Shown here: positions 6,321 through 29,193 of the stretch, piece by piece | How positions within the stretch are numbered: position 1 is the first letter of the stretch | Layout: the number at the start of each line of letters is the position of its first letter | Assembly: GCF_000170855.1 (NCBI RefSeq) | Contig: NZ_ABCQ01000004.1 | Coordinates: 1 to 64,000 of the forward strand | Length of the DNA: 64,000 nucleotides | From: Moritella sp. PE36 | GTDB lineage: Bacteria; Pseudomonadota; Gammaproteobacteria; Enterobacterales; Moritellaceae | Direction of reading: 5' to 3' | The notes under the pieces: model-generated | The model's database searches: none | What the model was told of the DNA's origin: nothing | The model's input: the letters and a program-made list of their open reading frames with translations, nothing else | Program-made: the position numbers and the translations under genes

Positions 6321-8501
6321 TTACTCGCGGCTGGCTTTCGCGCGGGCAGCAGTCAACTCTGCGGTTAAATAGTTAACGTTCGGGCAGCTGAACATGTCAT
6401 CCAATGTTGCTGATAGTTTACGACGCCAATTCGGGTATTCATCTACCGTTCCTGGTACGTTAACAGGCTTATCCATGGCTAGCCAGTCTTCGAGCTGTAA
6501 ACTCAACAAGCTACTTGAGCCTGCCGCTAAATGTAATTGTAAGCTGTTACTCAGTGCTTGGTCCATCGGCACATAGTCGGCATTGCGACCCACCGATTCC
6601 GCCAGTTTACCGTGCCACGATACACTATTGAGTATTTCTTGTTTCGACTTGCTACGATCATCAAACAAACCATTCAGCTGTGCTTGATCAGGATACAATC
6701 CAATCGTTTGACCTAATTTAAGATCTTCACAATGCCAGAAGCCACGCAATGTCGGCATGTCATGGGTACACAATGTGGCCATTGATTGCGGTTGATAATG
6801 TGCAGGTGAGAAGTAGCCACCATCTTCTGCCGTTTCAAAAAAGAATACTTTGTAAGAATGAATACCCGCGTCACTTAACAAGCTCACGATCTCATCAGGC
6901 ACGGTGCCAAGATCCTCACCAATCACCGCGCACTGGTGACGCTGACTTTCTAACGCCAAAATAGACAACATATCCTGCACCGGATAATACATATAAGCGC
7001 CAGATGTGGCATTTTCACCTTTTGGTATCCACCACAGACGCAATAGTCCTAATACATGATCGATACGCAAGGCACCACAATGCTGCATGTTGGCACGTAA
7101 TAGTTGAATAAAGGCATCATAACCCGTGGCTTTTAACTGCGCTGGATTAAGCGGCGGCAACCCCCAATTCTGTCCTAAAGGCCCTAATACATCGGGTGGT
7201 GCGCCAATGCTAACATCTTGACATAAGGTACCGTCATCCGCCCATACTTCAGCACCACTATCGGCAACGCCAACAGCAAGATCACGATAAATGCCCATAT
7301 TCATCCCTTGTGCTAAGGCAAATTTTTGCACATCGGCGATCTGCTCATCCGCAATCCACTGCAAGTACATATAACGCTGAATCGCAGGCTGGTTTTGTTT
7401 AATAAACGCTTGTACTGCATCGCTATTGATATCACGTAATTCAGCAGGAAATACTTGCCAACCCCATACGCTATCATCTTTGTCGTGCAGCTGTTGATGC
7501 AGCGCATCGAAGCTTGCTTGATGTAATAAGCTATTGCCACCTTTCGCCACAAACGCAGCAAAATCTTGTGCTCGTTGGCTGTTTTTCGCTAAATGACGTT
7601 GTTGGAACTCAGTAAATAACAGCGGTAATACGCTCATTTTCAAACGTGATACTTCACTGTAATCAACCCATTCAGTAGCACGAACAGCATGTAAAGCTTG
7701 CTGGAACTCATTGCTACCGACACGCTCTTGCGCCGCTGAGCACAAGGCAAATTCAGGTACAGCAGACACATCTATGTATAACAGATTTAACCAACGGCGA
7801 GATGACGGGCTGTATGGGCTCGCACCTTCAGGATTAGCTGGAAATAAAGAATGAATTGGATTTAAGCCAACAAAATCACCACCACGCGCGGCAATATCAG
7901 CCACCAGCTGTTTCAGGTCGCCAAAATCACCGATACCCCAGTTATGATCGGTTTTCAGAGTATACAACTGCACGCTTGGGCCCCAAGACTTGTTGCCTTG
8001 TTCAATCGACGGCTGTTTGTAACACGCTTTGGGTGCAACGATGAGTGTCATTTCATAAGGCGATTTACGACGACGGCGTAATACCTGTAATTTGTGATAA
8101 CCCAAGGCAAGATCATTGGGTAAAGAAAAAGTAAGCACCCCGCCGTCACCACGCGTATCGGTGACAATTTGCGATTGCAGATACCCCTCAACAACCTCAC
8201 CTTGTTCCGTCTCTAGCTGCCAGCTAAAATCACTGACTCTGGCGCTTAGCCCCAAATTCAGTTCAATATGAATGGGCTCACCTTTTTTAACCACTTTCAC
8301 CGCGGCTAGGATTGGCGTTTGATGTTTTTTATCCGCCGACGCCAGTAGCGTTTGTTCAGATTCAGTGTCATAACCTAGCGCAGCTAATAGGCGCGTTAGC
8401 GTATCATCGGAAACTACTTCATTGTTACCCCAAGCATTGGTATAGCTATCTGTGATACCCGCTTGTGCAGCAACTTGTTTCAGCACATTAATTTGTTCCA
8501 T
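6321..8501 (-). CDS. malQ: 4-alpha-glucanotransferase (amylomaltase, GH77)
   Basis: MalQ disproportionates maltodextrins, releasing glucose and building longer chains for MalP. The protein has ~726 aa, with an N-terminal extension as in enterobacterial MalQ followed by the GH77 barrel. Visible motifs are [12 protein letters not shown], the nucleophile Asp in [17 protein letters not shown] and the [10 protein letters not shown] segment. An ATG at 8513 is in frame, but GGAGG lies 7 bp before the ATG at 8501, so the latter is chosen. The gap to malP is 18 bp and the next gene starts at the malQ stop, so the three genes are co-transcribed. Confidence 0.94.
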
Positions 8502-8519
8502 TTTACCCTCCATGAATAC

Positions 8520-10976
8520 TTAACGGCTAACCGCGTTTAGTTGCCAAATGTTGTTAGCATAATCACGAATACTACGATCAGAGCTGAACTTGCCATTACG
8601 TGCGGTATTTAAAATTGCCATTTTAGCCCAGCCCTCTTGGTTACCATACTGCGTATCAATACGTGCTTGCGCTCGCACATAATCGGCAAAGTCAGCCAGT
8701 GCCAGGTACGGGTCACCGCCTTCTAACAAACTATGACGTGTCGCATTAAGTAAGCCTGGTTGACCGGGCGTAAACTCATCACCCGCCAGCAGATCCAGCG
8801 ACGCACGCAGTAATCTGTCTGAGTTATAATAATCGTAGGGGTTATAACCTTGCGCCTGCAGTGCTTGCACTTCATCAACATTAAGACCAAAAATAAAAAT
8901 GTTGTCATCACCGACTTCTTCACGGATCTCAACATTGGCACCATCCATCGTGCCGACAGTTAATGCACCATTCAGAGCCATCTTCATATTACCAGTTCCC
9001 GACGCTTCTTTACCCGCCGTTGATATCTGTTCAGACACATCCGCAGCCGGAATAATTATTTCAGCGAGACTGACTCGATAGTCAGGCATAAATACCACTT
9101 TCAAGGTATCACCGATTCGCGGATCATTGTTAATCTTTTCTGCTACCTTGTTAATTGCAAAGATAATTTCTTTAGCTAGCTCATATCCTGGCGCTGCTTT
9201 TGAAGCAAAAATAAACACTCTTGGCTGCATTTTGAAATCAGCGTCATTAATTAAACGATGATACAGCGACAAGATATGTAATAAATTAAGGTGCTGACGT
9301 TTATATTCATGTAGACGTTTAATTTGCACATCGAAGATCGCATCTGGGTTAATCGTGAGCCCCATATTTTCAGCAACCCAATCTGCTAAACGTTGTTTGT
9401 TGGCTTTTTTAACGCGCATAAAGTCCGTTTGGAATTGACTGTCGTCAGCAAATTTTTCTAATTTTTGCAGCTGATCCAGGTCTTTGATCCAACCAGATCC
9501 AATCTTACTGCTGATTAGCGCTGACAGTTTTGGATTACAGAACTTCAACCAACGACGTGGTGTCACACCATTGGTCACATTGTGTAATCGCCCCGGGAAC
9601 AACTCATTAAACTCTGGGAATAAATCACGTTTAACCAACTCAGAGTGCATCGCAGCAACACCATTGACCGCATAAGTACTGGCGACACATAAGTTAGCCA
9701 TACGCACACGACGTTCGTCCCCTTCTTGGATAATTGACAGCTTACGCAACTTCTCAACATCACCCGGCCACTTGTCAGCTACTTGCCCCATTAGGCGTAA
9801 ATTGATATCAAAGATGATCTCCATATGACGGGGTAATAACGTCTTCATCAAGCTCTCACCCCAGGTTTCTAATGCTTCAGGTAACAAGGTATGATTGGTA
9901 TAAGCAAATGTTTTTGAACTGATCGCCCAGGCATCATCCCAACTTAATTTATGTACATCTAGCAATATGCGCAATAGCTCAGGGATAGCAATTGTTGGAT
10001 GTGTGTCATTAAGTTGAATTGACTCTAACTTAGCTAAATCCAGAATCGAATGACCCGCGGCTTGATGACGACGTAAAATATCCGCCACAGAACAAGCACA
10101 ATGGAAGTACTGTTGCATTAAGCGCAGTTCTTTACCCTTATCGTGATTATCATTTGGGTATAATACTTTGGTCAGGTTACCCGCCTGTATATGACTTGCT
10201 TGCGCTGCAACGTAATTACCTTCGTCAAAACGTTCAAGGTTAAACGGCGCTGGCGCACGACATTCCCATAACCGCAGTGGATACACGGAGTTATTGTTAT
10301 AACCAACAATCGGTAAATCCCACGCCACGCCTTCTACGTGTAAACCCGGTAACCAACGACGTAGATTTAGGCCGTCATTATCTGTGTACTCTTCTACCTT
10401 GCCGTAAAAACCGACTTTTTGTGCTAGTTCCGGGCGAATCACTTCCCACGGGTAACCCGTTTCATCGCGCCATACATCCGGCGCTTCTTGTTGACGACCG
10501 TCATTAAAACTTTGCTTAAACAGGCCATATTCATAATGTAGGCCATAACCTACCGCAGGGTATTCTTCGGCTGCCAGTGAATCCATAAAACAAGCGGCAA
10601 GACGGCCTAAACCACCATTACCTAATGCCGGATCACGTTCTTCTTCTAATAAGTCAGTCAGGTTTTGACCAAACTCAGCCATTGCTACTGTCACTTCTTC
10701 ATACAATCCCATGCTAATGAGGTTATTACCAGTAAGACGACCAATCAGAAACTCTAATGATAAGTAGTTAACACTGCGGGCATTTTTGATTTTCGGATCT
10801 TGCTCTGTCGCCAGTAAATTCATGGTTGTGGTTTCGGCTAGCGCATACTCCATCGCTAAGCGCCACGTGTGGGCATCCGCTTGCTCTGGAGAGGTGACTA
10901 ATTTTGTTACTAGGTATTTATTAACCGCGGCCTGGAATGCTGTTTTATTAAAGCGTTTATTTACTGTCGATTTCAT
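8520..10976 (-). CDS. malP: Maltodextrin/glycogen phosphorylase
   Basis: This PLP enzyme phosphorolyses alpha-1,4-glucans to glucose-1-phosphate. At 818 aa it is close to the ~797 aa of E. coli MalP. The active-site blocks EERDPALGNGGLGRLAACF and KEASGTGNMKMALNGA (with the PLP lysine) are intact, and the substrate loop GYNNNSVYPLRLW is present. It is first in a malP-malQ-glgB operon and diverges from malT across 440 bp that contain MalT-like boxes. The gene order and divergent malT favour MalP over GlgP. Confidence 0.93.
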   Translation of the reverse strand: MKSTVNKRFNKTAFQAAVNKYLVTKLVTSPEQADAHTWRLAMEYALAETTTMNLLATEQDPKIKNARSVNYLSLEFLIGRLTGNNLISMGLYEEVTVAMAEFGQNLTDLLEEERDPALGNGGLGRLAACFMDSLAAEEYPAVGYGLHYEYGLFKQSFNDGRQQEAPDVWRDETGYPWEVIRPELAQKVGFYGKVEEYTDNDGLNLRRWLPGLHVEGVAWDLPIVGYNNNSVYPLRLWECRAPAPFNLERFDEGNYVAAQASHIQAGNLTKVLYPNDNHDKGKELRLMQQYFHCACSVADILRRHQAAGHSILDLAKLESIQLNDTHPTIAIPELLRILLDVHKLSWDDAWAISSKTFAYTNHTLLPEALETWGESLMKTLLPRHMEIIFDINLRLMGQVADKWPGDVEKLRKLSIIQEGDERRVRMANLCVASTYAVNGVAAMHSELVKRDLFPEFNELFPGRLHNVTNGVTPRRWLKFCNPKLSALISSKIGSGWIKDLDQLQKLEKFADDSQFQTDFMRVKKANKQRLADWVAENMGLTINPDAIFDVQIKRLHEYKRQHLNLLHILSLYHRLINDADFKMQPRVFIFASKAAPGYELAKEIIFAINKVAEKINNDPRIGDTLKVVFMPDYRVSLAEIIIPAADVSEQISTAGKEASGTGNMKMALNGALTVGTMDGANVEIREEVGDDNIFIFGLNVDEVQALQAQGYNPYDYYNSDRLLRASLDLLAGDEFTPGQPGLLNATRHSLLEGGDPYLALADFADYVRAQARIDTQYGNQEGWAKMAILNTARNGKFSSDRSIRDYANNIWQLNAVSR

Positions 10977-18130: not shown

Positions 18131-18514
18131 TTATAACTTTTTAATCGCAAATTCCGATATCGAATCAGCAAGGAAATTGACCATTTGGGGATGGTATGTA
18201 TTGTGAAATACTTTCATATCCTGATTTTCTTGGTAAAAAATCCCCATACCAATATAGGCCTCTTTTGAAGGCGTGTAAAAGCGACAAGCAATTTGATAAT
18301 GTTTTTCTATTATCCCTTGAACCTTATTACTATTACACTTCGCTATATCAATATATGTTGCTAGCTCTTTATATAGTGTATCCCAATCTTTATGGACTTT
18401 ATCACGCTCAACATGCTCCCAGTTATTACTATTAGAAAGACTTTGAGCTTGTTCTTCACTAAGAGCTACACGACATTTATTTAAATATTCTTTACTTAAT
18501 TTACTCATATTCAT
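18131..18514 (-). CDS. Stand-alone TipAS-domain (antibiotic-recognition-like) protein
   Basis: About 127 aa. The helical pattern matches the TipAS ligand-binding domain of MerR-family TipA regulators: a W..VERDKVHKDWDTLYKEL segment, an RFYTPSKEAYIGMGIFY segment and a terminal NFLADSISEFAIKKL helix. No MerR HTH is attached, so this is the drug-binding module alone, as in small thiopeptide- or albicidin-binding proteins. The ATG at 18514 has AGGGG 8 bp upstream; a longer in-frame extension to 18592 lacks an RBS. Upstream are a short leader-like ORF and a hairpin. Function as a drug-sequestering protein is inferred. Confidence 0.65.
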   Translation of the reverse strand: MNMSKLSKEYLNKCRVALSEEQAQSLSNSNNWEHVERDKVHKDWDTLYKELATYIDIAKCNSNKVQGIIEKHYQIACRFYTPSKEAYIGMGIFYQENQDMKVFHNTYHPQMVNFLADSISEFAIKKL

Positions 18515-18630
18515 AATTAGTACCCCTGACGCAACAAATGTAGATACGCCTGAACAAAAATTCATTAGGGGGTAACTATTAACCCTAAACACTACAAATG
18601 AATAAAAGTAGCTTTAGAAGTTAATATTAG

Positions 18631-18714: not shown

Positions 18715-19156
18715 CAAAAATCCCTCCTATAATAGATAAATTAGATTTAATACAAAGTGTTAACTAAGTATTAACTGGATGTAGCCGCAGTATATTGCAA
18801 GCCTTACAAATTAACAACCAATGTCAATTTCATAAATATATCGAAACCACTTTTAAAGGTCCTTTTTCTTTAGTGACATTTTAAACTTGCCTTAACAGTC
18901 ATTTCACTACTCAGGTAAAAAGTCCTCTCTAACGCTTATTTTATCCCTTTAAAACCAATTTTAACCCATAATTCTGGATGGTTCATTTTGCGCTGTCTTA
19001 GTGAATATCCCTTTCGCGTCGATTCTAATTGAAATGCTTGTTTCTAATGTTTTTGTAATATGGGATACAAGTCACTATAGGAGGGAGATAGCCTTTGCAT
19101 AATATCTAATCTAACCAAGGCTGGATCATAATTGAACTCACAATAGGGTTCGCGTG

Positions 19157-19330
19157 TGCTGTTGTGATATGACAAATTCCTCACATGAGAAAGTGTAGGG
19201 TAAATCGACATAAATGTATTGAGAATGAGTAACTGCTCTAACACACTTAGGGGCAAGTTCGGCTTAGGGCTTAAGCTTTAAAGAATAGTGTTGCATTACT
19301 TAAAATGTATCTTAAGCTGTACACCGTTAC
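19157..19330 (+). repeat. Dispersed repeat R2 (inner/right part)
   Basis: It contains GATATGACAAATT, ATTGAGAATGAGTAA, CTCTAACACACTTAGGGGCA and AGTTCGGCTTAGGG, followed by a TAAGCTTTAAAGAATAGTG tail shared with R3 (about 20720-20760). The GTGGCTAAGTAAT end is not present. Confidence 0.65.
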
Positions 19331-20519: not shown

Positions 20520-20775
20520 GTGGCTAAGTAATATTGGCCACTATTTTCGGTTCATTCTTGTAAATTATGTTATGTGAAAAGCAACTCACAATCATCGCAT
20601 GAACAAATGTATGGCAAACCGATATGAACATATAATTGATGAGTTGAAGCATATACGAAATGGGGCAGTTTCGGCTTAAAGTGATCACCCTAAGCCATTG
20701 ATGGACATAAATGGCTTAGAGCTTATGCTTTAAATAAGACGTTTCGCATTATTGAAAGTATGGTTAAGAAATTGA
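20520..20775 (+). repeat. Dispersed repeat R3
   Basis: It begins GTGGCTAAGTAATATTGGCC, continues CATTCTTGTAAATTAT, ATGGCAAACCGATATGAACA and GGGGCAGTTTCGGCTTA, then the palindromic GGCTTAaagTGATCAcccTAAGCC block. It shares its right tail with R2. It abuts the IS982 remnant. Confidence 0.7.
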
Positions 20776-20785
20776 ACTAAAGCTA

Positions 20786-21095
20786 GCTTTGAACAAATTA
20801 ATAGATTTATTCTGTGATATCGATGATTTCTTTAAAAATTCATACATAAGTGGAAAAATAATAATTTAAAGTGGTTAACACAAGCGTAATGAGGCAAGTC
20901 GTCTGTCTCGCTGAGAAATACTGACCATTATTATTGCATGTCACATCTCCGTAATTTCAAGAACTATTATCTTGGGCTTATTCGTCGTTACCACCTTCAA
21001 TATTTCCCAAATTTACTTAGCTATCCCCATTTTTAGACGTAATACCATCAGTTCTCGTCCAGATAAATGGTATAGGGCAGTACTGTACACCTCCT
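20786..21095 (+). pseudogene. Degenerate IS982-family transposase remnant
   Basis: Conceptual translation in shifting frames gives NKLIDLFCDIDDFF, LAE.LTIII and a FK(N)YYLG-like segment followed by RRYHLQYFPNLLSYPHF. These match the order of N-terminal motifs in IS982 transposases. Several stops and frameshifts are present and the catalytic region is missing. The ~740 bp between the VOC gene and the LysR gene contain only this remnant, R3 and A+T-rich DNA. Confidence 0.55.
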
Positions 21096-21249
21096 TAATT
21101 TGGAAAACATAATCCTAATCGAGGTTAATTACAATATTTTCGAATACCAAATAAGAGATATTTAGTGTATTTTAATGATTCAAAACAATAGTTAATCTAA
21201 TCAATCCTCCGTTTATATTTGATGAACGCAATCGAGTTATAGGTAGTAC

Positions 21250-22140
21250 ATGGAACGACAGTTTTTACGTAAAAATGGAATCACCTTAGAGCAATTAAGA
21301 TGCTTCGTGTGTGTTTATGAGACAAGAAGCATTACAAGTGCAACCCATACACTCGCTAAAACGCAATCAGCAGTAACATTAACACTCCAAAAATTTGAAG
21401 AAACCATTGGACAAGAGCTTTTTATTCGACGCGCTGGAAAAAATTTAGATAGGACTGAAAATGCGCAAGGAGTCTATATCAATGCGATTGACATATTAAA
21501 GCGTGTCAATACCCTGTGTAACGCAACAAAAGAAGTTGTTAGGGTTGGTATTCCCGACGACCTTTCAATGAATCAAATTATCAAGTTACAAAATTATCTA
21601 TTGTCATATTTTGTGGGCCGTATGGTTACATTCACTGTGGATAAAAACTCAAACCATAAATTGCAATTTTCTAATGGAAACATTGACCTTTATTTTCATA
21701 AGAAATTAAAGGTATCCACGGACACTCCCCTATTGTACGAAGGCAGGTTCCTTTATACTTCAAAGCTAATATGGGTTAGTAAAGAAAGGATTAATGTTGA
21801 CCTTATTGACTTTTTACCTTTGGTATCTTTCCACGAAGGGTGCATACCACGAGCAAGTCTAGATCACGCACTTGCACTTCTCCAAGTACCACATGAAATT
21901 ATGTTTGAGTCATTCAGCTGGACACAAAATATAGAAGCAATTAAATTCGGTTTTGGCGTAGGTGTCATACTCGATAGTATGCATACGGATGATTTGGTCG
22001 TACTTGGCTCAAATGATGGTTTTCCTGAACTTTGGGATATAGATATTTATTTGATTGGTCGACAAGGTTTTAAAGATGAACGACTTGCCGACGGGTTAAG
22101 CAATCTATTTAATCGACAAACTCCGATTGAGGGAGAGTAA
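21250..22140 (+). CDS. LysR-family regulator facing the dioxygenase/ilvA operon
   Basis: The 296-aa protein has an N-terminal HTH (RSITSATHTLAKTQSAVTLTL) and a LysR-like effector domain. It is convergent with the five-gene operon and its 3' end overlaps the threonine dehydratase gene by 32 bp. It is therefore the nearest candidate regulator, although it does not share a divergent promoter with the operon. The ligand is unknown; an amino acid is plausible given the neighbours. Confidence 0.8.
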   Translation: MERQFLRKNGITLEQLRCFVCVYETRSITSATHTLAKTQSAVTLTLQKFEETIGQELFIRRAGKNLDRTENAQGVYINAIDILKRVNTLCNATKEVVRVGIPDDLSMNQIIKLQNYLLSYFVGRMVTFTVDKNSNHKLQFSNGNIDLYFHKKLKVSTDTPLLYEGRFLYTSKLIWVSKERINVDLIDFLPLVSFHEGCIPRASLDHALALLQVPHEIMFESFSWTQNIEAIKFGFGVGVILDSMHTDDLVVLGSNDGFPELWDIDIYLIGRQGFKDERLADGLSNLFNRQTPIEGE

Positions 22141-23626
22141 CATCACTGATTGTACAAGAGTATTTTTCTAAAAACTCTTGTACACAAGGTTTGTAATTTG
22201 CCTCAATACCAAGTAGTAAGCTACAAAAACTCGATCCATCTTTTCGATAATTTATTGCAGTGAAGTCTACATTTGAATATATATGCTGTAAAATTATAAG
22301 TAGCTGCCCTTTCTTTTCAGGAAACTCGAACCTATAAAATTTCTCAGATTTTTTGGATGTAGTTAAGTTAGAATCACCTATCATAAATCTAAGATGAGAT
22401 TTCCCTACATCTGAATCCGTCATATCCAGCGCTTTGTAACCATTTTCTCGTAAAAGATCTAATGTTGAATTAACTAACGATGTGTCGTCAACAGAGCTGA
22501 AACTTACCATTATGTTGGCTTGCTCTGAAGCCGATTTCCTGTATTTAAGCTCAGTGATATCCACCTCTGAAAGTTGGTCCACTAATTTAATTAACTCACC
22601 TTGTTTTTCAGGAATGGTTAAATACACCAATTTTTCTTTTTTTTGCCCTAAATTACACCGCTGAGCAACATATTCGAGTTTTTGAAAATTCATGTTGCTA
22701 CCTGATAAAATAACGCCAATTTTTTTACCTTTTATATGATGATCTTTAAGGTATTTATATGCACCAGCTAAGCCTACTGCACCACTTCCTTCTGCAATAG
22801 CACGTGTATCTTCATGGATATACTGAATTGCTGAACATACTTCATCTTTAGAGACTGTCATGTGATCATCAATAGCATCTTTACATATCTCATAAGGTAG
22901 TTTTCCTATTTGTCCTACAGCGACTCCATCTGAAAATGAACATATACTATCCAATTTAGATATTACTTTTGCTCTCAGAGATACCCCCAGAGTCTGTGCT
23001 CCTTCAGGCTCAACAGCAATAATTTTTGTTGATGGACTAAGCGTATTCATCGCTATGGTTAACCCAGCTAAGAGGCCACCACCACCGACTTGTACAAATA
23101 GGTAGTCCAATTGTTCAACTTGTGATGCGAACTCCAGACCAATGGTCCCTTGACCACAAATAACCTCAATATCATCAAATGGATGAATTAAACTTAGATC
23201 ACGAGAATCAGCTAAATTATATGCGTAACGATATGCTTCATCATAGTTAACACCATGTAAAACGACATTAGCTCCATAACTTCTCACTGCATCGACTTTT
23301 ATCTTAGGAGTCGTATCTGGCATAACAATCGTAGCTGTTGTACCAAGTTCTTTGCAGACTTTCGCGACACCTTGAGCGTGGTTACCAGCAGACGCGGCAA
23401 CAACACCTCGATTCAATTGTATTAAAGGAAGCGATATAATCTTCTGATATGCTCCTCGTATTTTGAATGAATTAATATCTTGTAGATCTTCACGTTTTAA
23501 ATAAATGTCATTGTTAGTTTGTTTAGATAGGTTTACTAACCGATCTACTGGTGTTGGTTTTAGGTAGTCGAAAACAGGAGATGTTACAATTTTGTTGAAA
23601 TAGGATTCTATTATTTGAATTTGCAT
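22109..23626 (-). CDS. ilvA: Threonine dehydratase, biosynthetic IlvA-like
   Basis: IlvA-type PLP enzymes deaminate threonine to 2-oxobutyrate, the first step to isoleucine. The 505-aa length matches biosynthetic IlvA. The catalytic domain (about 1-330) has the PLP lysine in INSFKIRGAYQ, the SAGNHAQGV loop, and the glycine-rich VGGGGLLAGL. Two ACT-like regulatory domains follow (KEKLVYLTIPEKQGELIKL and SEKFYRFEFPEKKGQLLII). It is the last gene of the operon, 10 bp after the desaturase, with AAGG near its start. Its place here suggests precursor supply or a resistant copy rather than housekeeping, but that is inference. Confidence 0.88.
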   Translation of the reverse strand: MQIQIIESYFNKIVTSPVFDYLKPTPVDRLVNLSKQTNNDIYLKREDLQDINSFKIRGAYQKIISLPLIQLNRGVVAASAGNHAQGVAKVCKELGTTATIVMPDTTPKIKVDAVRSYGANVVLHGVNYDEAYRYAYNLADSRDLSLIHPFDDIEVICGQGTIGLEFASQVEQLDYLFVQVGGGGLLAGLTIAMNTLSPSTKIIAVEPEGAQTLGVSLRAKVISKLDSICSFSDGVAVGQIGKLPYEICKDAIDDHMTVSKDEVCSAIQYIHEDTRAIAEGSGAVGLAGAYKYLKDHHIKGKKIGVILSGSNMNFQKLEYVAQRCNLGQKKEKLVYLTIPEKQGELIKLVDQLSEVDITELKYRKSASEQANIMVSFSSVDDTSLVNSTLDLLRENGYKALDMTDSDVGKSHLRFMIGDSNLTTSKKSEKFYRFEFPEKKGQLLIILQHIYSNVDFTAINYRKDGSSFCSLLLGIEANYKPCVQEFLEKYSCTISDVTLPQSEFVD

Positions 23627-23636
23627 GCTGACTACC

Positions 23637-24767
23637 TTAATCTATGTTATTTTCGATCTGATTCGTAACTACTGGTGACAGTGCTAATTGATCAAAAACT
23701 ATTCCAATTGCATTATGGATCCCCCAAACCTCTAAGTAAGGAGGCTCTTCTTCATGAATCTTCAAGATAGCGTCATTGCGGAGTTGAGCAGCGTTAACCC
23801 AGTTAACCACGATAGGGTGACGATGATGAAAGTCGTGTTGAGGTAAATCGCCAACAAGAATAAATAGCCTAACTGGTAGATGATAAGCTAAATTACACAC
23901 GTACCACATGAATAAATTATTGCGCTTAACGGGATACTGTAAGCCGCAAAATCGTCCCCAAGAAATATCAGCGTAGAAATAAGGAGTATTTTTCCTATTC
24001 TCCAAGTTTCCGTACCACAAATGTTCACTAATAATCTCAATGAATGCACTTATTTGATATAAAATTACTAGCGCCAAGAATATAAAGATAAATGCTGAGT
24101 AATTTTGTTGTTCGATAATCAACCATCCCACTAAGCAATAGTAAGATAGAGATATGGCAGTGCGAATCGGCTTAGTACTGTTAATATTGTATGCTAATCG
24201 TTTTAGTATAAATTTAATGTGGAAAAGTGGGGAAACTAAGCATAACCAAAAGCTTAAGCGTAATTCTTGTGCTGTCAATCCCGGTTTTACACCTGACTTA
24301 GTAAGAAAAATAAGAATTGGATCTCTTTCCGTTGCAAAACTGTCTGGCGCATGGTGTGTCTTACAGTGATCTTTTTTATAACTATGATAATCTTGACTCA
24401 AAGTAATAATTGAACAAAATTCGCCTATCAGCATATCGAATAACTCGTTACCACTTAGACGATTATGCACCGCTTGGTGTATTACTACTGCAGCTAGCCT
24501 TCGTGACATTGCAACTATGAGAAGGGCACAAACTCCTTGCACGTAGTAATTGTAAGATACTAAAACGCCGTATAGACCACCAAATAATCCCAAAATTGTA
24601 AATAAAGTATATGTACACCAATTAAAAACAGTATTTGTTGTTTTAGTTGAATGAGCTTTTCCTGTTAACCATGTGGAAAATCTATTTGGTATTAAACTAT
24701 TGTCATATGAGTCTCTAATTTCTTGAGATAATTTTGGATTCACGTTGGGATTGTTTTGTATATTCAT
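23637..24767 (-). CDS. Membrane di-iron desaturase/hydroxylase-like protein
   Basis: The 376-aa protein has hydrophobic helices near residues 47-87, 175-190, 205-245 and 285-305. The histidine boxes of the fatty-acid-desaturase superfamily are intact: H97-x3-H101, H134-x3-HH (138/139) and H311-xx-HH (314/315). An extra SEHLWYG segment (H249) and H295 are also present. Such enzymes use a di-iron centre and electrons from ferredoxin; a ferredoxin gene lies 7 bp upstream. Most members act on lipids. RtxC of rhizobitoxine synthesis is a relative that desaturates an amino-acid derivative, which would suit this operon. The substrate is unproven. Confidence 0.8.
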   Translation of the reverse strand: MNIQNNPNVNPKLSQEIRDSYDNSLIPNRFSTWLTGKAHSTKTTNTVFNWCTYTLFTILGLFGGLYGVLVSYNYYVQGVCALLIVAMSRRLAAVVIHQAVHNRLSGNELFDMLIGEFCSIITLSQDYHSYKKDHCKTHHAPDSFATERDPILIFLTKSGVKPGLTAQELRLSFWLCLVSPLFHIKFILKRLAYNINSTKPIRTAISLSYYCLVGWLIIEQQNYSAFIFIFLALVILYQISAFIEIISEHLWYGNLENRKNTPYFYADISWGRFCGLQYPVKRNNLFMWYVCNLAYHLPVRLFILVGDLPQHDFHHRHPIVVNWVNAAQLRNDAILKIHEEEPPYLEVWGIHNAIGIVFDQLALSPVVTNQIENNID

Positions 24768-24774
24768 TTTAGAC

Positions 24775-25020
24775 CTATTGGATTATTTCTATATCAGTTT
24801 CTGGATAACTTTGACAAGCTAATGGCTTTTGGCTGTAGTTTTTAAGCTCTCCAGAAACTAGTTGAAACCTACACTGACCACATACACCTGAGCCACAGTT
24901 GTGTCGCATCGAAACATTGTTCTCAATGGCAGCCTGTAATATTGTTTTTTTAGAGGTCGTCTCAAACGTTTTTTTGTTCATTGTAATAGTTACTTTTTTA
25001 CCTATTAACCAACTAAGCAT
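24775..25020 (-). CDS. [2Fe-2S] plant-type ferredoxin
   Basis: The 81-aa protein has the cluster ligands C42-x4-C47-x2-C50 (RHNCGSGVCGQCRF) and C69 in PLACQ. The fold pattern is that of ferredoxin domains that feed oxygenases and desaturases. The start overlaps the exporter stop by 8 bp and the desaturase follows after 7 bp, so it is very likely the electron donor to that enzyme. No ferredoxin reductase is encoded nearby, so a housekeeping reductase would be needed. Confidence 0.88.
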   Translation of the reverse strand: MLSWLIGKKVTITMNKKTFETTSKKTILQAAIENNVSMRHNCGSGVCGQCRFQLVSGELKNYSQKPLACQSYPETDIEIIQ

Positions 25021-25903
25021 TTTTCATATTGCCTTTTATGTAATTGATTGAATTGTAGGTAATTAAAGATAGTAAAATCACTATCACACCAGATATCTCA
25101 ATGTGGGTCAGTTTCAAATCATAAATAATTACATCTAACGAAAGAGCTACTATCGGATATACAAATGACATGATCGCTAAACTGGAAATATCTGATTTTT
25201 CATAAGCACCATAAAGAAATATGTACATAAATCCAGTATGTACTAGTCCTAAAATTATCAGGTTGTGGCCAGTCGGTATATTCGCAATGAAATTATCAAC
25301 ATCAACAAAATTTATGAATACGACGCATCCAATGCACAAGTGACACATGGCTATAAATGTGGGTTTTAATTTTGTGATTTTCTTTGTGTAAATTGTCGAT
25401 ATAGCATAAAGGGTTGCAGCTACTAGAGCGTTAATTACACCGGAAACTTTAACTTCGCTTTGTTGGATATCCCCACCTAAAACGACAATAACAAGCCCAA
25501 TAAAGGCGATGACAATTAGAATTAAGCTCTCTAACTTTATCTTTTCTTTAAGTAAAAATGCACCAAGAATCATGAGAATAAAAGGCTGAGTATTGTAAAT
25601 TACGGTTGTTATTCCGATGGAAAGTGTTTTATATGACTCGAATAGAAATAACCAGTTGAATACCAATGTTAGACCTCCAACGAGCAGCATTAGTAGAGTT
25701 TTAAACGTGATATCAGCTCGGTCTGGATATAACTTGAAGATCCAGACATAGCCAAATAAAAATAGAGCCCCAATTATACAGCGAACAAAAACGATGTTAG
25801 CTGAAACCTGTTGTGACTCTAATGCGAAATAACCAATCGAGCCAGAAAGAATCATCGCAATTAGCATGTATAAGCGACCTATAGTGTCTGTCGAATACTT
25901 CAT
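25013..25903 (-). CDS. EamA/DMT-superfamily exporter (RhtA-like)
   Basis: The 296-aa protein has ten predicted helices in two EamA repeats; the second starts near SGVINALVAATLYAIST. Members such as RhtA and YdcZ-like proteins export amino acids and small metabolites. The start (25903) follows the dioxygenase stop with one base between (TGAAATG), showing translational coupling. In Bacillus thuringiensis an RhtA-type exporter is paired with isoleucine dioxygenase, so export of the modified amino acid is the likely role here (inference). Confidence 0.8.
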   Translation of the reverse strand: MKYSTDTIGRLYMLIAMILSGSIGYFALESQQVSANIVFVRCIIGALFLFGYVWIFKLYPDRADITFKTLLMLLVGGLTLVFNWLFLFESYKTLSIGITTVIYNTQPFILMILGAFLLKEKIKLESLILIVIAFIGLVIVVLGGDIQQSEVKVSGVINALVAATLYAISTIYTKKITKLKPTFIAMCHLCIGCVVFINFVDVDNFIANIPTGHNLIILGLVHTGFMYIFLYGAYEKSDISSLAIMSFVYPIVALSLDVIIYDLKLTHIEISGVIVILLSLITYNSINYIKGNMKNA

Positions 25904-25904
25904 T

Positions 25905-26618
25905 TCAATAGTGTCCTTGGTTTTGTTGAGAGGGATTTTCTAAATTGATAAGCATAACGTCTCTACGAGAAGTACCACTGGACGAGCCGATAGGAGTAAC
26001 GGCATGCTTTAAAGAAGGGTCAACAACTAGACAATCCATAAAATGAGTTAACCGTATGACATTGGTCGGCATATCATCGAAACCTGAGATAACATTATCA
26101 GCTCCTAATGTATTAGCTGTAAGGTTTATTAGATGAATAAAAACAAGAGGTTCGTCATCTTGGTGTAACCAAACAGGAGAGCTATATGAAGCCTCTCCTT
26201 CTTGGGCTTGATAGCGTATAAAGTGTATGCTGATATTGGCTGTTGCTGCGTCATTTAACTCACAATACTTTCGAATGTATGGTTCATGTTCACGAAATAA
26301 AGCCTTAAATACAGGTATGTTTAGAAGGCTACCTTCAATAGTATTAAATGAACGTGACATTCCTCCATTTAAGTTATTAGCGTTACCTGATTGAAAATAG
26401 TTCTGAGTGGAAGCTTTTAGAAGCTTACGCGTAGAGTAGTGATACTCTACTTTTAGCATGCCTCTAATTCTGACTGGAGAGTATGGGTCCAAATCAATAT
26501 TATCATTGAAGAACTCTCTGAAGTCTGATATTTCATTCAATTCTAAGCTGTGGTCAGATAATAGAGCAGAACCTTTAATGAATTTAAATCCGTTTACGTA
26601 TGGGTATGGAATATCCAT
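25905..26618 (-). CDS. 2OG-Fe(II) dioxygenase, BsmA/isoleucine-dioxygenase type
   Basis: The 237-aa protein matches the 2OG-Fe_Oxy_2 family of free-amino-acid hydroxylases, which includes isoleucine 4-hydroxylase IDO. Visible are the iron triad H152-x-D154 (VWLHQDDEPLVFIHLINL) and H205 (DPSLKHAVTPIG), with R219 in TSRRDVMLIN as probable 2-oxoglutarate ligand. The conserved block VIRLTHFMDCLVVDPS is typical of the family. The ATG at 26618 is chosen because AAGGAA lies 6 bp upstream; an earlier ATG (26663) has none. It is first in the five-gene operon, with the IS66 remnant beginning ~140 bp upstream. The substrate is predicted to be a branched-chain or related amino acid. Confidence 0.82.
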   Translation of the reverse strand: MDIPYPYVNGFKFIKGSALLSDHSLELNEISDFREFFNDNIDLDPYSPVRIRGMLKVEYHYSTRKLLKASTQNYFQSGNANNLNGGMSRSFNTIEGSLLNIPVFKALFREHEPYIRKYCELNDAATANISIHFIRYQAQEGEASYSSPVWLHQDDEPLVFIHLINLTANTLGADNVISGFDDMPTNVIRLTHFMDCLVVDPSLKHAVTPIGSSSGTSRRDVMLINLENPSQQNQGHY

Positions 26619-26781
26619 GTGTATTTCCTTTTTGTTTGGGTATGGAAATACTATATTCATCATAAGCCTTTGAATAATTTTATTTATTTATGACTTATGA
26701 CTTTTTTTAATGGGTCAGAGAGTTTAGATGAAAATGGATATGATGTAAGTAAGCATAGTTAGGCGGTGAAGCCTGATATCA

Positions 26782-28261
26782 TCAGGCGTCTAGGTCTGCA
26801 TTCCAAGGTAATAAATCACTTAAATCAGCAAATTCATCCCGTTGCGGCAGTTCTGTGAAGAGTTTTTGGAAGTATAAATACGGGTTTATATCGTTCGCAC
26901 GACAAGTCATCACAATACTGTAAAGTACTGCGCTCGCGTCTGCACCATCCACTGATTGGCTGAACATCCAATTTTTACGACTTGTGGTAAATGGCCTAAC
27001 ATCCCGTTCGGTAATGTTATTATCAATCCCTAATTCACCCGAATTAAGATAGCTCCTCAGCTTTTCCCATTGATTTAAGGTATAGCTAATGGCCACGCCT
27101 ATTTTACTTTTCGGGGTGACTGTTGTTGCACTTTTTCTTAGCCATTCATGAAATTGCTGCAAGACTGGTTTGGCTTTTTTCTCAATTGCGTAAAGCGATT
27201 GAATGTAATTTAATGCCACGGTGGCTTTGCCAGTTTTTTTGGGCTGCGCGGTTAAGGGGCATCGTGAAACTTACGTCTTGCATGAGCCCAGCAACCAACA
27301 GGAATAATATCGTCGATATTTTCATAAGCACTGTAACCATCGCATTGTAAGTAACCTGCAAACCCAGCTAAGAATGTTTTAGGGCAGCGACGTGCGCGAC
27401 TCGGTTGGTAATCGTAGATTACAACCGGCTTTGCCGTGTATTCATTACTACGATAAACCCACATGTATGATTTTTGCTGTGCAGTTCGATCTTTTTCATC
27501 AAGTACTTGGATCGTTGTTTCATCTGCGCAGAGCGTTGATTGAGCAAGTAAATGTGTTTTCATTACCGCTATTAATGGGCTGAGTAATTCAGCGCTTTTA
27601 ATACACCAATTAGCCAATGTGCCTCGGGTGATTTCAAGACCACCGCGAGCAAAGATATCAGTCAAACGATAGAGCGGTAATGCATCGCAGTATTTAGCAA
27701 CGACAACAGCGGCAAGCGCTTCGGGGCTAGCAATGCTGCCAGGTATTGGCTGTGCTGGTTTTGGGGCGGTTACTACTGATGAGCTAATGGACGTTGCTTC
27801 GCATTCACGGCAAGCATATTTAGTTTGTCTGTGTTTAATAACGCTGATTTTTTCTGGAATGATCTTAACTTGTTCGCTTATCTGTTCACCACACGCATGC
27901 ATATCATGGCCACAGCATGAGCATGTTGGCGTCTCGATAACGTAAGACTTTTCTTCTCGTTCAAGATGTTTTGGTAAGTCCTTTTCGTACGCGAGGTTTG
28001 CTTTCTGATTGGTTTTCTTCAGCTTCGTTAAATGTGCCCTTTGGCATCTTTTCACTGCGTGAACCAAATTCTTTTTTACGGTTGATTTTTAACTGCTCTA
28101 AAGCAATGTTAAGGCTGCTTTGAAGCTTTTTATTTTTAGCAGATAACACTTTGTCATCTGTATTCAAATCGATACTTTTAGAGCTAAGCACCTGATTTTA
28201 CGCTGCAACTTTCCAGAATTTGTTTTAATTTTTCAATATCATCAGGTAGTTCTGTTGTCAT
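26782..28261 (-). pseudogene. tnpC: IS66 transposase TnpC, frameshifted
   Basis: The start MTTELPDDIEKLKQIL (28261) stops at 28184. The frame then shifts to LEQLKINRKKEFGSRSEKMP, again near 28020 to the zinc-binding CSCCGHDM and catalytic parts (LCADETTIQVLDEK, LQCDGYSAYENI), and again near 27240 to the C-terminal LGIDNNITERDVRPF block. All IS66 TnpC domains are recognisable but split over four frames, so no functional transposase can be made. Confidence 0.85.
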
Positions 28262-28345
28262 TTATTAGCGCTCAATACAAGTAGATAGCGCTAGTTTGCC
28301 TGTTGTATTGGATCATGCAACACTCAATTGTCGATCCAGTGACGA

Positions 28346-28696
28346 TCACCTCACTGCGAGACCATTTAAAGGCTTGTGTGCATGAGCGGTTTCTAATGAT
28401 AATCCTGAGAGCAACCAATTTAGCTGATGTTGGTTGATTGTCAGTACGTCTTGCTCATCAGTAGCGCAAGGCCACTTAAACCGGCCTTTCTCTAAGCGCC
28501 GATAATAAAGCCAGAAACCATTGGTATCCCAAAATAAGATCTTAATTTTGTCGCGATGGCGATTACAAAAAATAAACCAAGCTTCGCTCAGCGGGTCCAT
28601 TTCCAGTACATCACTGACAATTAAAGATAAGCCGTCAATGGATTTACGCATATCTGTATGTCCAGTAACGAGGTAGATCAGCTTGTGTGGTGTCAT
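28346..28696 (-). CDS. tnpB: IS66 accessory protein TnpB
   Basis: The 116-aa protein matches IS66 TnpB (Orf2): LVTGHTDMRKSIDGLSLIV, a RHRDKIKILFWDTNGFWLYYRRLEKGRF block and a C-terminal LNWLLSGL. The reading frame is intact. It overlaps the tnpA stop by the ATGA arrangement at 28693-28696. With tnpA and tnpC broken it can have no transposition role by itself. Confidence 0.9.
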   Translation of the reverse strand: MTPHKLIYLVTGHTDMRKSIDGLSLIVSDVLEMDPLSEAWFIFCNRHRDKIKILFWDTNGFWLYYRRLEKGRFKWPCATDEQDVLTINQHQLNWLLSGLSLETAHAHKPLNGLAVR

Positions 28697-29001
28697 GCTG
28701 ATAACACGCTTAAAAATTGCTGTAATTTACTCGGTTCTAATGACGCGGGAAATGAAAATTGATAACCATTAGGTAATGTTAGAGTGAGTTGCTCGTCAGG
28801 TTTAGTTTCAGGAAATACGAGTGGTATAACCTTCTGCTTATTTGTTCTTTTTGGTGATAGCTAGCTTAGTTTTTTAGCCCAGAAATTAAATGTGGATACG
28901 GTAATGTTATTGCGTTTACAGAATTCTGATTTGTTTAGGCCACTTTCAGCTTGCAGCTGAAATATGCGCTGCCAATGTTGTTCTTTTTTATTTTGTAACA
29001 T
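28693..29001 (-). pseudogene. tnpA: IS66 TnpA with nonsense codon
   Basis: The reading MLQNKKEQHWQRIFQLQAES and KSEFCKRNNITVSTFNFWAKK is the IS66 TnpA helix-turn-helix. It is stopped by TAG at 28861-28863, after which the same frame continues LSPKRTNKQKVIPLVFPE to the normal end. Only one base change is needed to restore it. Confidence 0.82.
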
Positions 29002-29193
29002 GGTTTTATCCCTTCATTTAATGAAGAGATAATCATGCAATAACTGAAAATATTTGGTAGGTGGGGTTAACTAACCGTGTATGGACACAACCTCTATTGC
29101 AAGTAAAATTTATAAATTTGTCTATTGAAGTATTGTAACAGTGGGTTTCATTAATTTTATTTCAGACCTTTAGGTTGGCTAACGCTAAATGTA

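Follow-up and report, generated by a model that had tools for sequence, protein, structure and literature searches.

The closest described relatives of the system reported here are operons that oxidise isoleucine. Hil operons, found in Pantoea, Pseudomonas, Rahnella and Xenorhabdus, have the order HilR-HilP-HilA-HilB-HilC, some with HilD/HilE, RhtA or PALP genes; HilA and HilB turn isoleucine into 4,4'-dihydroxyisoleucine, and the natural substrate of HilB is isoleucine previously hydroxylated by HilA (excerpts of PMC3684760). The IDO operon of Bacillus thuringiensis leads from 4-hydroxyisoleucine to 2-amino-3-methyl-4-ketopentanoate (AMKP), with export by RhtA, and AMKP inhibits only in minimal medium, an effect presumably reversed by amino acids (PMC3684760). 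Here we describe a five-gene operon in the first 64,000 nucleotides of contig NZ_ABCQ01000004.1 of Moritella sp. PE36 (the window), encoding a 2-oxoglutarate (2OG)-Fe(II) dioxygenase (DIOX), an EamA/RhtA-type exporter, a [2Fe-2S] ferredoxin, a membrane di-iron protein (DES) and a threonine deaminase (IlvA). Judged from its genes and their relatives, it is likely under LysR control, was probably transferred, and would serve to make and export an isoleucine-type amino acid in oxidised form.

All five genes could be confirmed as intact and closely coupled: their reading frames are open on the minus strand, and the intergenic gaps from DIOX to IlvA are exactly 1, -8, 7 and 10 bp (Table 1). The 8-bp overlap of the EamA and ferredoxin genes is identical in the window and in its two closest relatives, L016 and L017, and ferredoxin cysteines 42, 47, 50 and 69 are present in all three operons; the best NCBIfam model for the ferredoxin is YfaE (4.8e-11, below cut-off). 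The DIOX frame could begin at 26663, but a good ribosome site precedes the ATG at 26618, which agrees with the relatives and is the start chosen in the original prediction. An earlier reading of the same DNA from its letters (the original prediction) had named these coupled genes with the same gaps and families, and open reading frames (ORFs), gaps and Pfam/NCBIfam matches agree with it, DES being placed by NCBIfam, histidine boxes and fold only. The extent it gave holds for the five genes and overlooked the convergent LysR gene, the upstream IS66 element and a second IlvA gene on contig C108. Its claim of intact cofactor residues is borne out for the iron ligands of DIOX, the ferredoxin cysteines and the retained K62 of IlvA, which we take to be the pyridoxal phosphate (PLP) lysine.

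Table 1. Features of the operon and its immediate surroundings (window coordinates).
Feature	Position	Strand	Basis
LysR-type regulator gene, candidate operon regulator	21250..22140	+	HTH_1 6.3e-13
ilvA-like threonine deaminase, two regulatory domains	22109..23626	-	PALP 1.4e-72, two Thr_dehydrat_C stretches, TIGR01124 1.5e-157
DES, membrane di-iron enzyme (desaturase/AlkB superfamily) that likely hydroxylates or desaturates amino-acid side chains	23637..24767	-	NCBIfam GntB, histidine boxes, AlphaFold2 (AF2) fold
[2Fe-2S] ferredoxin, YfaE-like, probable DES electron donor	24775..25020	-	Fer2 1.8e-11
EamA/RhtA-type exporter	25013..25903	-	EamA 5.5e-29
DIOX, PF10014 2OG-Fe(II) amino-acid dioxygenase (IDO/HilB type)	25905..26618	-	2OG-Fe_Oxy_2 3.1e-31
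Presumed promoter/regulatory region of operon	26619..26740	-	no Rfam element and no convincing LysR box
IS66-family insertion element directly upstream of operon	26741..29081	-	TnpB_IS66 4.4e-41, DDE_Tnp_IS66 9.5e-59 and 2.1e-26

DES was used to scan genome contigs, which gave 19 loci. The two closest to the window, L016 of Marinomonas alcarazii and L017 of Vibrio sp. RE86, carry the same order DIOX-EamA-ferredoxin-DES-IlvA with a convergent LysR gene. Its recurrence in two further genera shows that the five genes did not come together by chance, and on these comparisons we regard the set as an evolutionary unit. The search for the same order elsewhere, which the original prediction had proposed, also found two loci that keep four of the functions in new orders. 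One, L103 (genome G1057), reads DES-DIOX-EamA-IlvA and adjoins a phage-type integrase; the other, L018 (Aliiroseovarius crassostreae), reads AlaX-DES-CimA-DIOX-EamA, without IlvA in the block, and its CimA-like gene between DES and DIOX matches TIGR00977 at 1e-125 (420 bits against a cut-off of 450). IlvA and CimA (citramalate synthase) are unrelated enzymes that both lead to 2-oxobutyrate, the isoleucine precursor, which suggests that the operon needs this compound. Homologous loci with the genes regularly separated, which the original prediction had named as telling against it, were not the pattern found; the counter-case is Pseudomonas cedrina L020, a 6.5-kb contig with DES, LysR and EamA genes and without DIOX or IlvA. 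EamA homologues occur at five other DES loci (L016, L017, L018, L020 and L103). The operon is rare in its taxonomic order: of 394 genomes there, 4 have a DES match at E<1e-100, namely the window genome, RE86 and two with AzlCD cassettes. A DIOX profile search of 398 genomes of the phylum gave three matches at E<=1e-20: the window, G471 (locus L098) and G1057 (L103).

Two side observations concern these relatives. The gene that opens the L018 block (8262-8981) is of the AlaX transfer-RNA-editing type (NF040865, 2.8e-51, 174 bits against a cut-off of 300) and is a candidate for self-resistance against mischarging by the product. L099 (439-5540) is possibly another variant cluster: within 5 kb it combines a DIOX-like fragment, two transporter-like ORFs (named by eye), an EamA gene and a distant DES.

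By sequence, DIOX is a PF10014 family member of the IDO/HilB kind, its orthology to HilB being unproven by score. Its match to the IDO structure 6lnh has an E-value of 3.5e-29. Among the IDO residues reported to contact iron or the backbone of the amino acid (PMC10180240), the iron ligands H159/D161/H212 (IDO numbering) and the backbone-binding Y143, S153, P155 and R227 are kept in all four DIOX proteins and in the HilB-like protein of L098, to which the window DIOX is 33% identical. IDO F206 is valine in that HilB and in 4/4 DIOX proteins. An order in which DIOX acts after DES fits, because HilB acts on isoleucine already hydroxylated by HilA, the single pocket residue being weak evidence. 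Elsewhere in the window genome (G000) lie two more PF10014-like dioxygenase genes, at C88:12137-12769 and C128:94197-94727, and a frame of 215 amino acids resembling the latter has matches in 10/10 congeners.

For the window DES no Pfam match was found at E<=1, and its only NCBIfam match is the arginine hydroxylase GntB (3.8e-14), which all 11 family members match when each is scanned singly. Histidines H97, H101, H134, H138, H249, H311, H314 and H315 are invariant in 11/11 members, and H139 nearly so. The AF2 model has the AlkB/SCD1 fold and in VIA-align fits AlkB better than SCD1, a difference that says little about function; VIA-align is the basis of the fold claim, Foldseek having returned no match at E<=0.001 and a PDB sequence search a single chance-level row (E 0.62). 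Because the sole named family of the window DES is a hydroxylase and its fold lies nearer AlkB, a second hydroxylation appears likelier than the desaturation that had been predicted, which is now the less supported step. DES also keeps company with amino-acid genes. An EamA or AzlC gene stands in the adjacent block at 10/29 DES loci, the expectation for EamA in the 5 kb on each side being about 5% (51 domain matches taken as ~26 proteins), and a GlmS-like gene is next door at 13/29. AzlCD-type branched-chain exporter genes adjoin DES in L012, L013, L070 and L071 (AzlD of L013 was not detected by phmmer), and in L017 such genes lie just upstream of the whole operon.

In Escherichia coli IlvA, the double change F352A+R362F relieves isoleucine feedback (PMC6393993, PMC12830291, both in part). 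The operon IlvA reaches the cut-off of TIGR01124 (525 bits; 411.3) and misses that of PRK09224 (543 bits; 577), and it has L and V at the positions of F352 and R362. In a first alignment, F and R were kept in E. coli and in four other-copy IlvAs, and L and V stood in 3/3 operon copies. We then compared operon IlvAs with presumed housekeeping enzymes, using 29 of 30 loci (L123 is the same gene as L002) that were the best-scoring of 96 genomes over cut-off among 143, a sample that leans to canonical copies. F352 was found in 0/4 operon IlvAs versus 33/34 presumed housekeeping enzymes, R362 in 0/4 versus 31/34, and W458 and F463 in 0/4 versus 34/34. The window genome (contig C108, 42-44% identical to the operon copy), Marinomonas and Vibrio each have a second IlvA with F352 and R362. 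The L103 IlvA has F at position 447; L447F is, we assume, a feedback-resistance change. Since the operon IlvAs perhaps form one clade (99/93, the bootstrap of the IlvA tree not being settled), they do not count as four independent losses. From these residues the operon IlvA is predicted to be insensitive to isoleucine, although the pair it carries is F352L/R362V and not F352A+R362F. The apparent replacement by CimA together with the loss of feedback residues argues for IlvA as precursor supply, as originally proposed.

The mechanism we favour would then run as follows. The operon IlvA, whose family and residues are those given above, would convert threonine to 2-oxobutyrate free of the isoleucine brake, and the ordinary pathway of the host would fill the isoleucine pool. 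With electrons from the ferredoxin, DES would oxidise the isoleucine side chain, most likely by hydroxylation, thus taking the role of HilA; this step is suggested by the similarity to GntB and by context. DIOX, whose chemistry follows from homology and whose substrate is inferred, would hydroxylate C4 in a reaction that uses 2-oxoglutarate and Fe(II), and its preferred substrate may be the DES product, just as HilB favours 4'-hydroxyisoleucine. The EamA protein would export what is expected to be a dihydroxy-isoleucine or an unsaturated hydroxy-isoleucine. Such a product would probably be an isoleucine antimetabolite, possibly inhibiting the growth of competitors, and if so a desensitised IlvA would also protect the producer against false feedback. 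An operon for modifying and exporting an isoleucine-family compound, as originally predicted, is supported by the conserved loci and residues. Furanomycin was tried as a candidate product and rejected; the portions of the literature at hand report a polyketide origin and name no genes for it.

Several further observations weigh against this account. Model scores stay below their cut-offs both for DIOX against HilB (2.2e-33, 115 bits; cut-off 350) and for DES against GntB (52.8 bits; cut-off 380), and PF10014 members also act on leucine, threonine and methionine (PMC3684760). No ferredoxin gene adjoins DES in L018 or L103. The Aliiroseovarius genome has no match to the window IlvA at E<=1e-60, and its CimA may be a general route of the host; the AlaX-like gene there hints at a smaller product. 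Similarly, G1057 has no second IlvA match at E<=1e-50 besides the operon copy, which may be its sole IlvA. Among the presumed housekeeping enzymes, L116 has L/H at F352/R362 and two others are without R362. Changes shared by operon IlvAs fall on 9/56 regulatory versus 6/100 other conserved columns (Fisher p 0.05, in tests that treat kin sequences as independent), and are thus weakly concentrated in the regulatory part.

It is a real possibility, if short of an even chance, that IlvA or CimA serves mainly for self-resistance, as an analogue-proof entry enzyme that maintains the flow to isoleucine while the product falsely inhibits the housekeeping copy, with supply secondary. The feedback residues lost in the operon IlvAs and retained in the second copies of the window genome, Marinomonas and Vibrio suit this reading, as does the inhibition by AMKP in minimal medium only (PMC3684760); the missing second IlvA match in G1057 speaks against it, and supply and protection are not separable by sequence. 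More doubtful is that DES is a true desaturase like RtxC and the product an unsaturated amino acid, as the original prediction had it. Here 6/11 members of the family have a Pfam FA_desaturase hit at E<=1, the strongest being 1.1e-16, and the membrane di-iron superfamily does both chemistries. An ordinary lipid desaturase placed in the operon incidentally is highly improbable, since superfamily membership and the two of 11 members that match DesA (best 4.8e-09) are set against the amino-acid gene company of DES, with its EamA/AzlC and GlmS-like neighbours.

The substrate could instead be another amino acid derived from 2-oxobutyrate, for example 2-aminobutyrate, giving a vinylglycine- or 4-hydroxythreonine-like product. 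Both IlvA and CimA yield 2-oxobutyrate, one transamination from 2-aminobutyrate, and an AlaX-type gene as in L018 would make sense if some small amino acid were mischarged; PF10014 enzymes hydroxylate threonine too (PMC3684760). We nevertheless consider this unlikely, as no dedicated aminotransferase is among the five genes, the DIOX pocket follows IDO/HilB, and AzlCD branched-chain exporters recur beside DES. That the operon is a decaying, silent island is very unlikely: a broken IS66 element and dispersed repeats stand at its borders and it was not found in 10 congeners, but its ORFs are all open, catalytic residues are kept and the order is conserved across genera.

Beyond the oxidised-isoleucine account that we prefer lies a bolder and rather speculative proposal, on which DES would found a family of membrane di-iron oxygenases for free beta-methyl (2-amino-3-methyl) amino acids and, with DIOX, would make an undescribed isoleucine antimetabolite, a feedback-proof IlvA or CimA both feeding the pathway and immunising the producer. 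The substrate would be of isoleucine type beside IlvA, CimA and AzlCD, and 3-methylaspartate beside glutamate mutase; DES would attack the methyl branch, like HilA with isoleucine, and CimA would be convergent with IlvA. We take the 4' carbon of isoleucine in HilA numbering to be the beta-methyl group. The nuclear magnetic resonance table of PMC3684760 fits this assignment. If true, the operon would hold a second, unrelated enzyme solution (membrane di-iron protein plus ferredoxin) to Hil-type isoleucine dihydroxylation, would tie isoleucine oxidation to a threonine deaminase that is desensitised to feedback by nature and carries a defined residue signature, and would make DES beside IlvA, CimA, AzlCD or glutamate mutase a marker for finding exported amino-acid antimetabolites that are not yet known. 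There is practical interest, too, in naturally desensitised IlvA enzymes and in an amino-acid enzyme that oxidises C-H bonds.

The surroundings of the operon bear on its control and origin. The LysR gene is convergent with the operon, its 3' end overlapping ilvA by 32 bp, and its orthologues in L016 (60% identical) and L017 (47%) are placed and oriented alike. In the upstream region a search for riboswitches or attenuators gave no Rfam match at E<=1, an alignment of the three operon upstream regions showed no convincing conserved LysR box, and promoter-like sites were at chance level (24 versus 27.7 expected; terminator-like 6 versus 4.4 expected). The IS66 transposase gene is split into two ORFs and the element is repeated in same-genus genomes; its ends are estimates from the start and stop of those matches, and no terminal inverted repeats of at least 14 bp were found. 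A plasmid search with the IS66 region gave no matches, and one with DIOX gave two weak ones only. Among the matches listed, window 21070-26740 has no nucleotide match in 10 congeners except an ilvA stretch of 178-189 bp at 70-72% identity; for DES, a first search of the same genomes found none and its profile a weak distant match in G373 (5e-6). G+C across the operon is 34-38%. By sequence identity the window's DIOX, EamA, ferredoxin, IlvA and LysR resemble their Marinomonas counterparts more than those of Vibrio, whereas the DES tree groups the window with Vibrio (95/82). The case for horizontal transfer from sequence identities alone is therefore mixed, and absence from the 10 congeners is the stronger argument. 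The operon is probably a horizontally acquired, mobile-looking island in this genome. Dispersed repeats lie at 18898-19275 and 20598-21069, parts of which match several places in genus genomes; one borders the operon island. Further away, the protein encoded at 18131-18592 is a TipAS antibiotic-recognition domain standing alone (PF07739, 9e-14); a WYL regulator gene and one of the glyoxalase family lie near it.

DES relatives also occur in other company. AraC-AzlC-AzlD-DES four-gene cassettes (L012, L070 and L071; the AraC genes of the latter two named by eye) are present on a Klebsiella plasmid and in two genomes from the same taxonomic order as the window; the DES of L070/L071 is 30% identical to that of the window. 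In actinobacteria and Hyalangium (L019, L022-L025, L027-L034), a DES relative is followed by a GlmS-like gene at 13/13 loci, with GlmE detected in 12 and an aminotransferase in 6. Neither the AraC-AzlC-AzlD-DES cassettes nor the GlmS/GlmE-DES clusters have an operon-type DIOX or IlvA alongside, and in a limited search by name we know of no description of either. A PLP decarboxylase-like gene precedes DES in two scanned loci, L023 and L032, and a DUF2000 gene adjoins it in L013 (8999-9433) and L073, followed by AzlC in L013. At L072 (8591-10491; also numbered L007) DES adjoins a HalD-type amino-acid halogenase gene, an aminotransferase-like gene is near, and ATP-grasp and EamA genes were recognised by eye in the vicinity.

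How, then, does the operon compare with described systems? No description of the five-gene set was found in open-licence literature. The earlier statement that no described pathway was known needs qualifying, since the Hil operon already joins a LysR regulator, a PF10014 dioxygenase and a second isoleucine oxygenase, and some members also hold RhtA exporters and a PALP gene (excerpts of PMC3684760). All of these the present operon shares in kind, its second oxygenase presumably being of isoleucine type and its exporter and PALP gene resembling those of some Hil operons. Unlike Hil operons, it has none of HilA (PF13640), HilP, HilC, HilD or HilE, with DES and ferredoxin instead, and it and its relatives carry a full IlvA or CimA-like gene. 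A test for Hil membership among the six genes found PF10014 and no PF13640, HilP or HilC family genes, and because HilA, HilP and HilC are absent the operon is not a Hil member. L098 resembles a Hil operon by gene order and size, without DES (only its HilB was compared in detail); the operon LysR proteins are 23-30% identical to its LysR (window 27%) and are placed convergently. An IlvA-like ORF (2e-57) lies 2.6 kb beyond the last Hil-like gene of that locus (L098:9623-12987), at the end of the fetched stretch, as does, by eye, an IlvC-like ORF, so that Hil genes there adjoin isoleucine-pathway genes. With the B. thuringiensis IDO operon the present one shares a PF10014 isoleucine dioxygenase and an RhtA-family exporter; it is without the short-chain dehydrogenase and has DES, ferredoxin and IlvA in addition. 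DES also matches GntB, the L-arginine gamma-hydroxylase of guanitoxin biosynthesis (NF041365), far below cut-off. The best reading is that this is an operon for oxidising and exporting isoleucine, related to the published Hil/IDO operons as a variant that has a feedback-desensitised 2-oxobutyrate enzyme and in which DES with ferredoxin replaces HilA.

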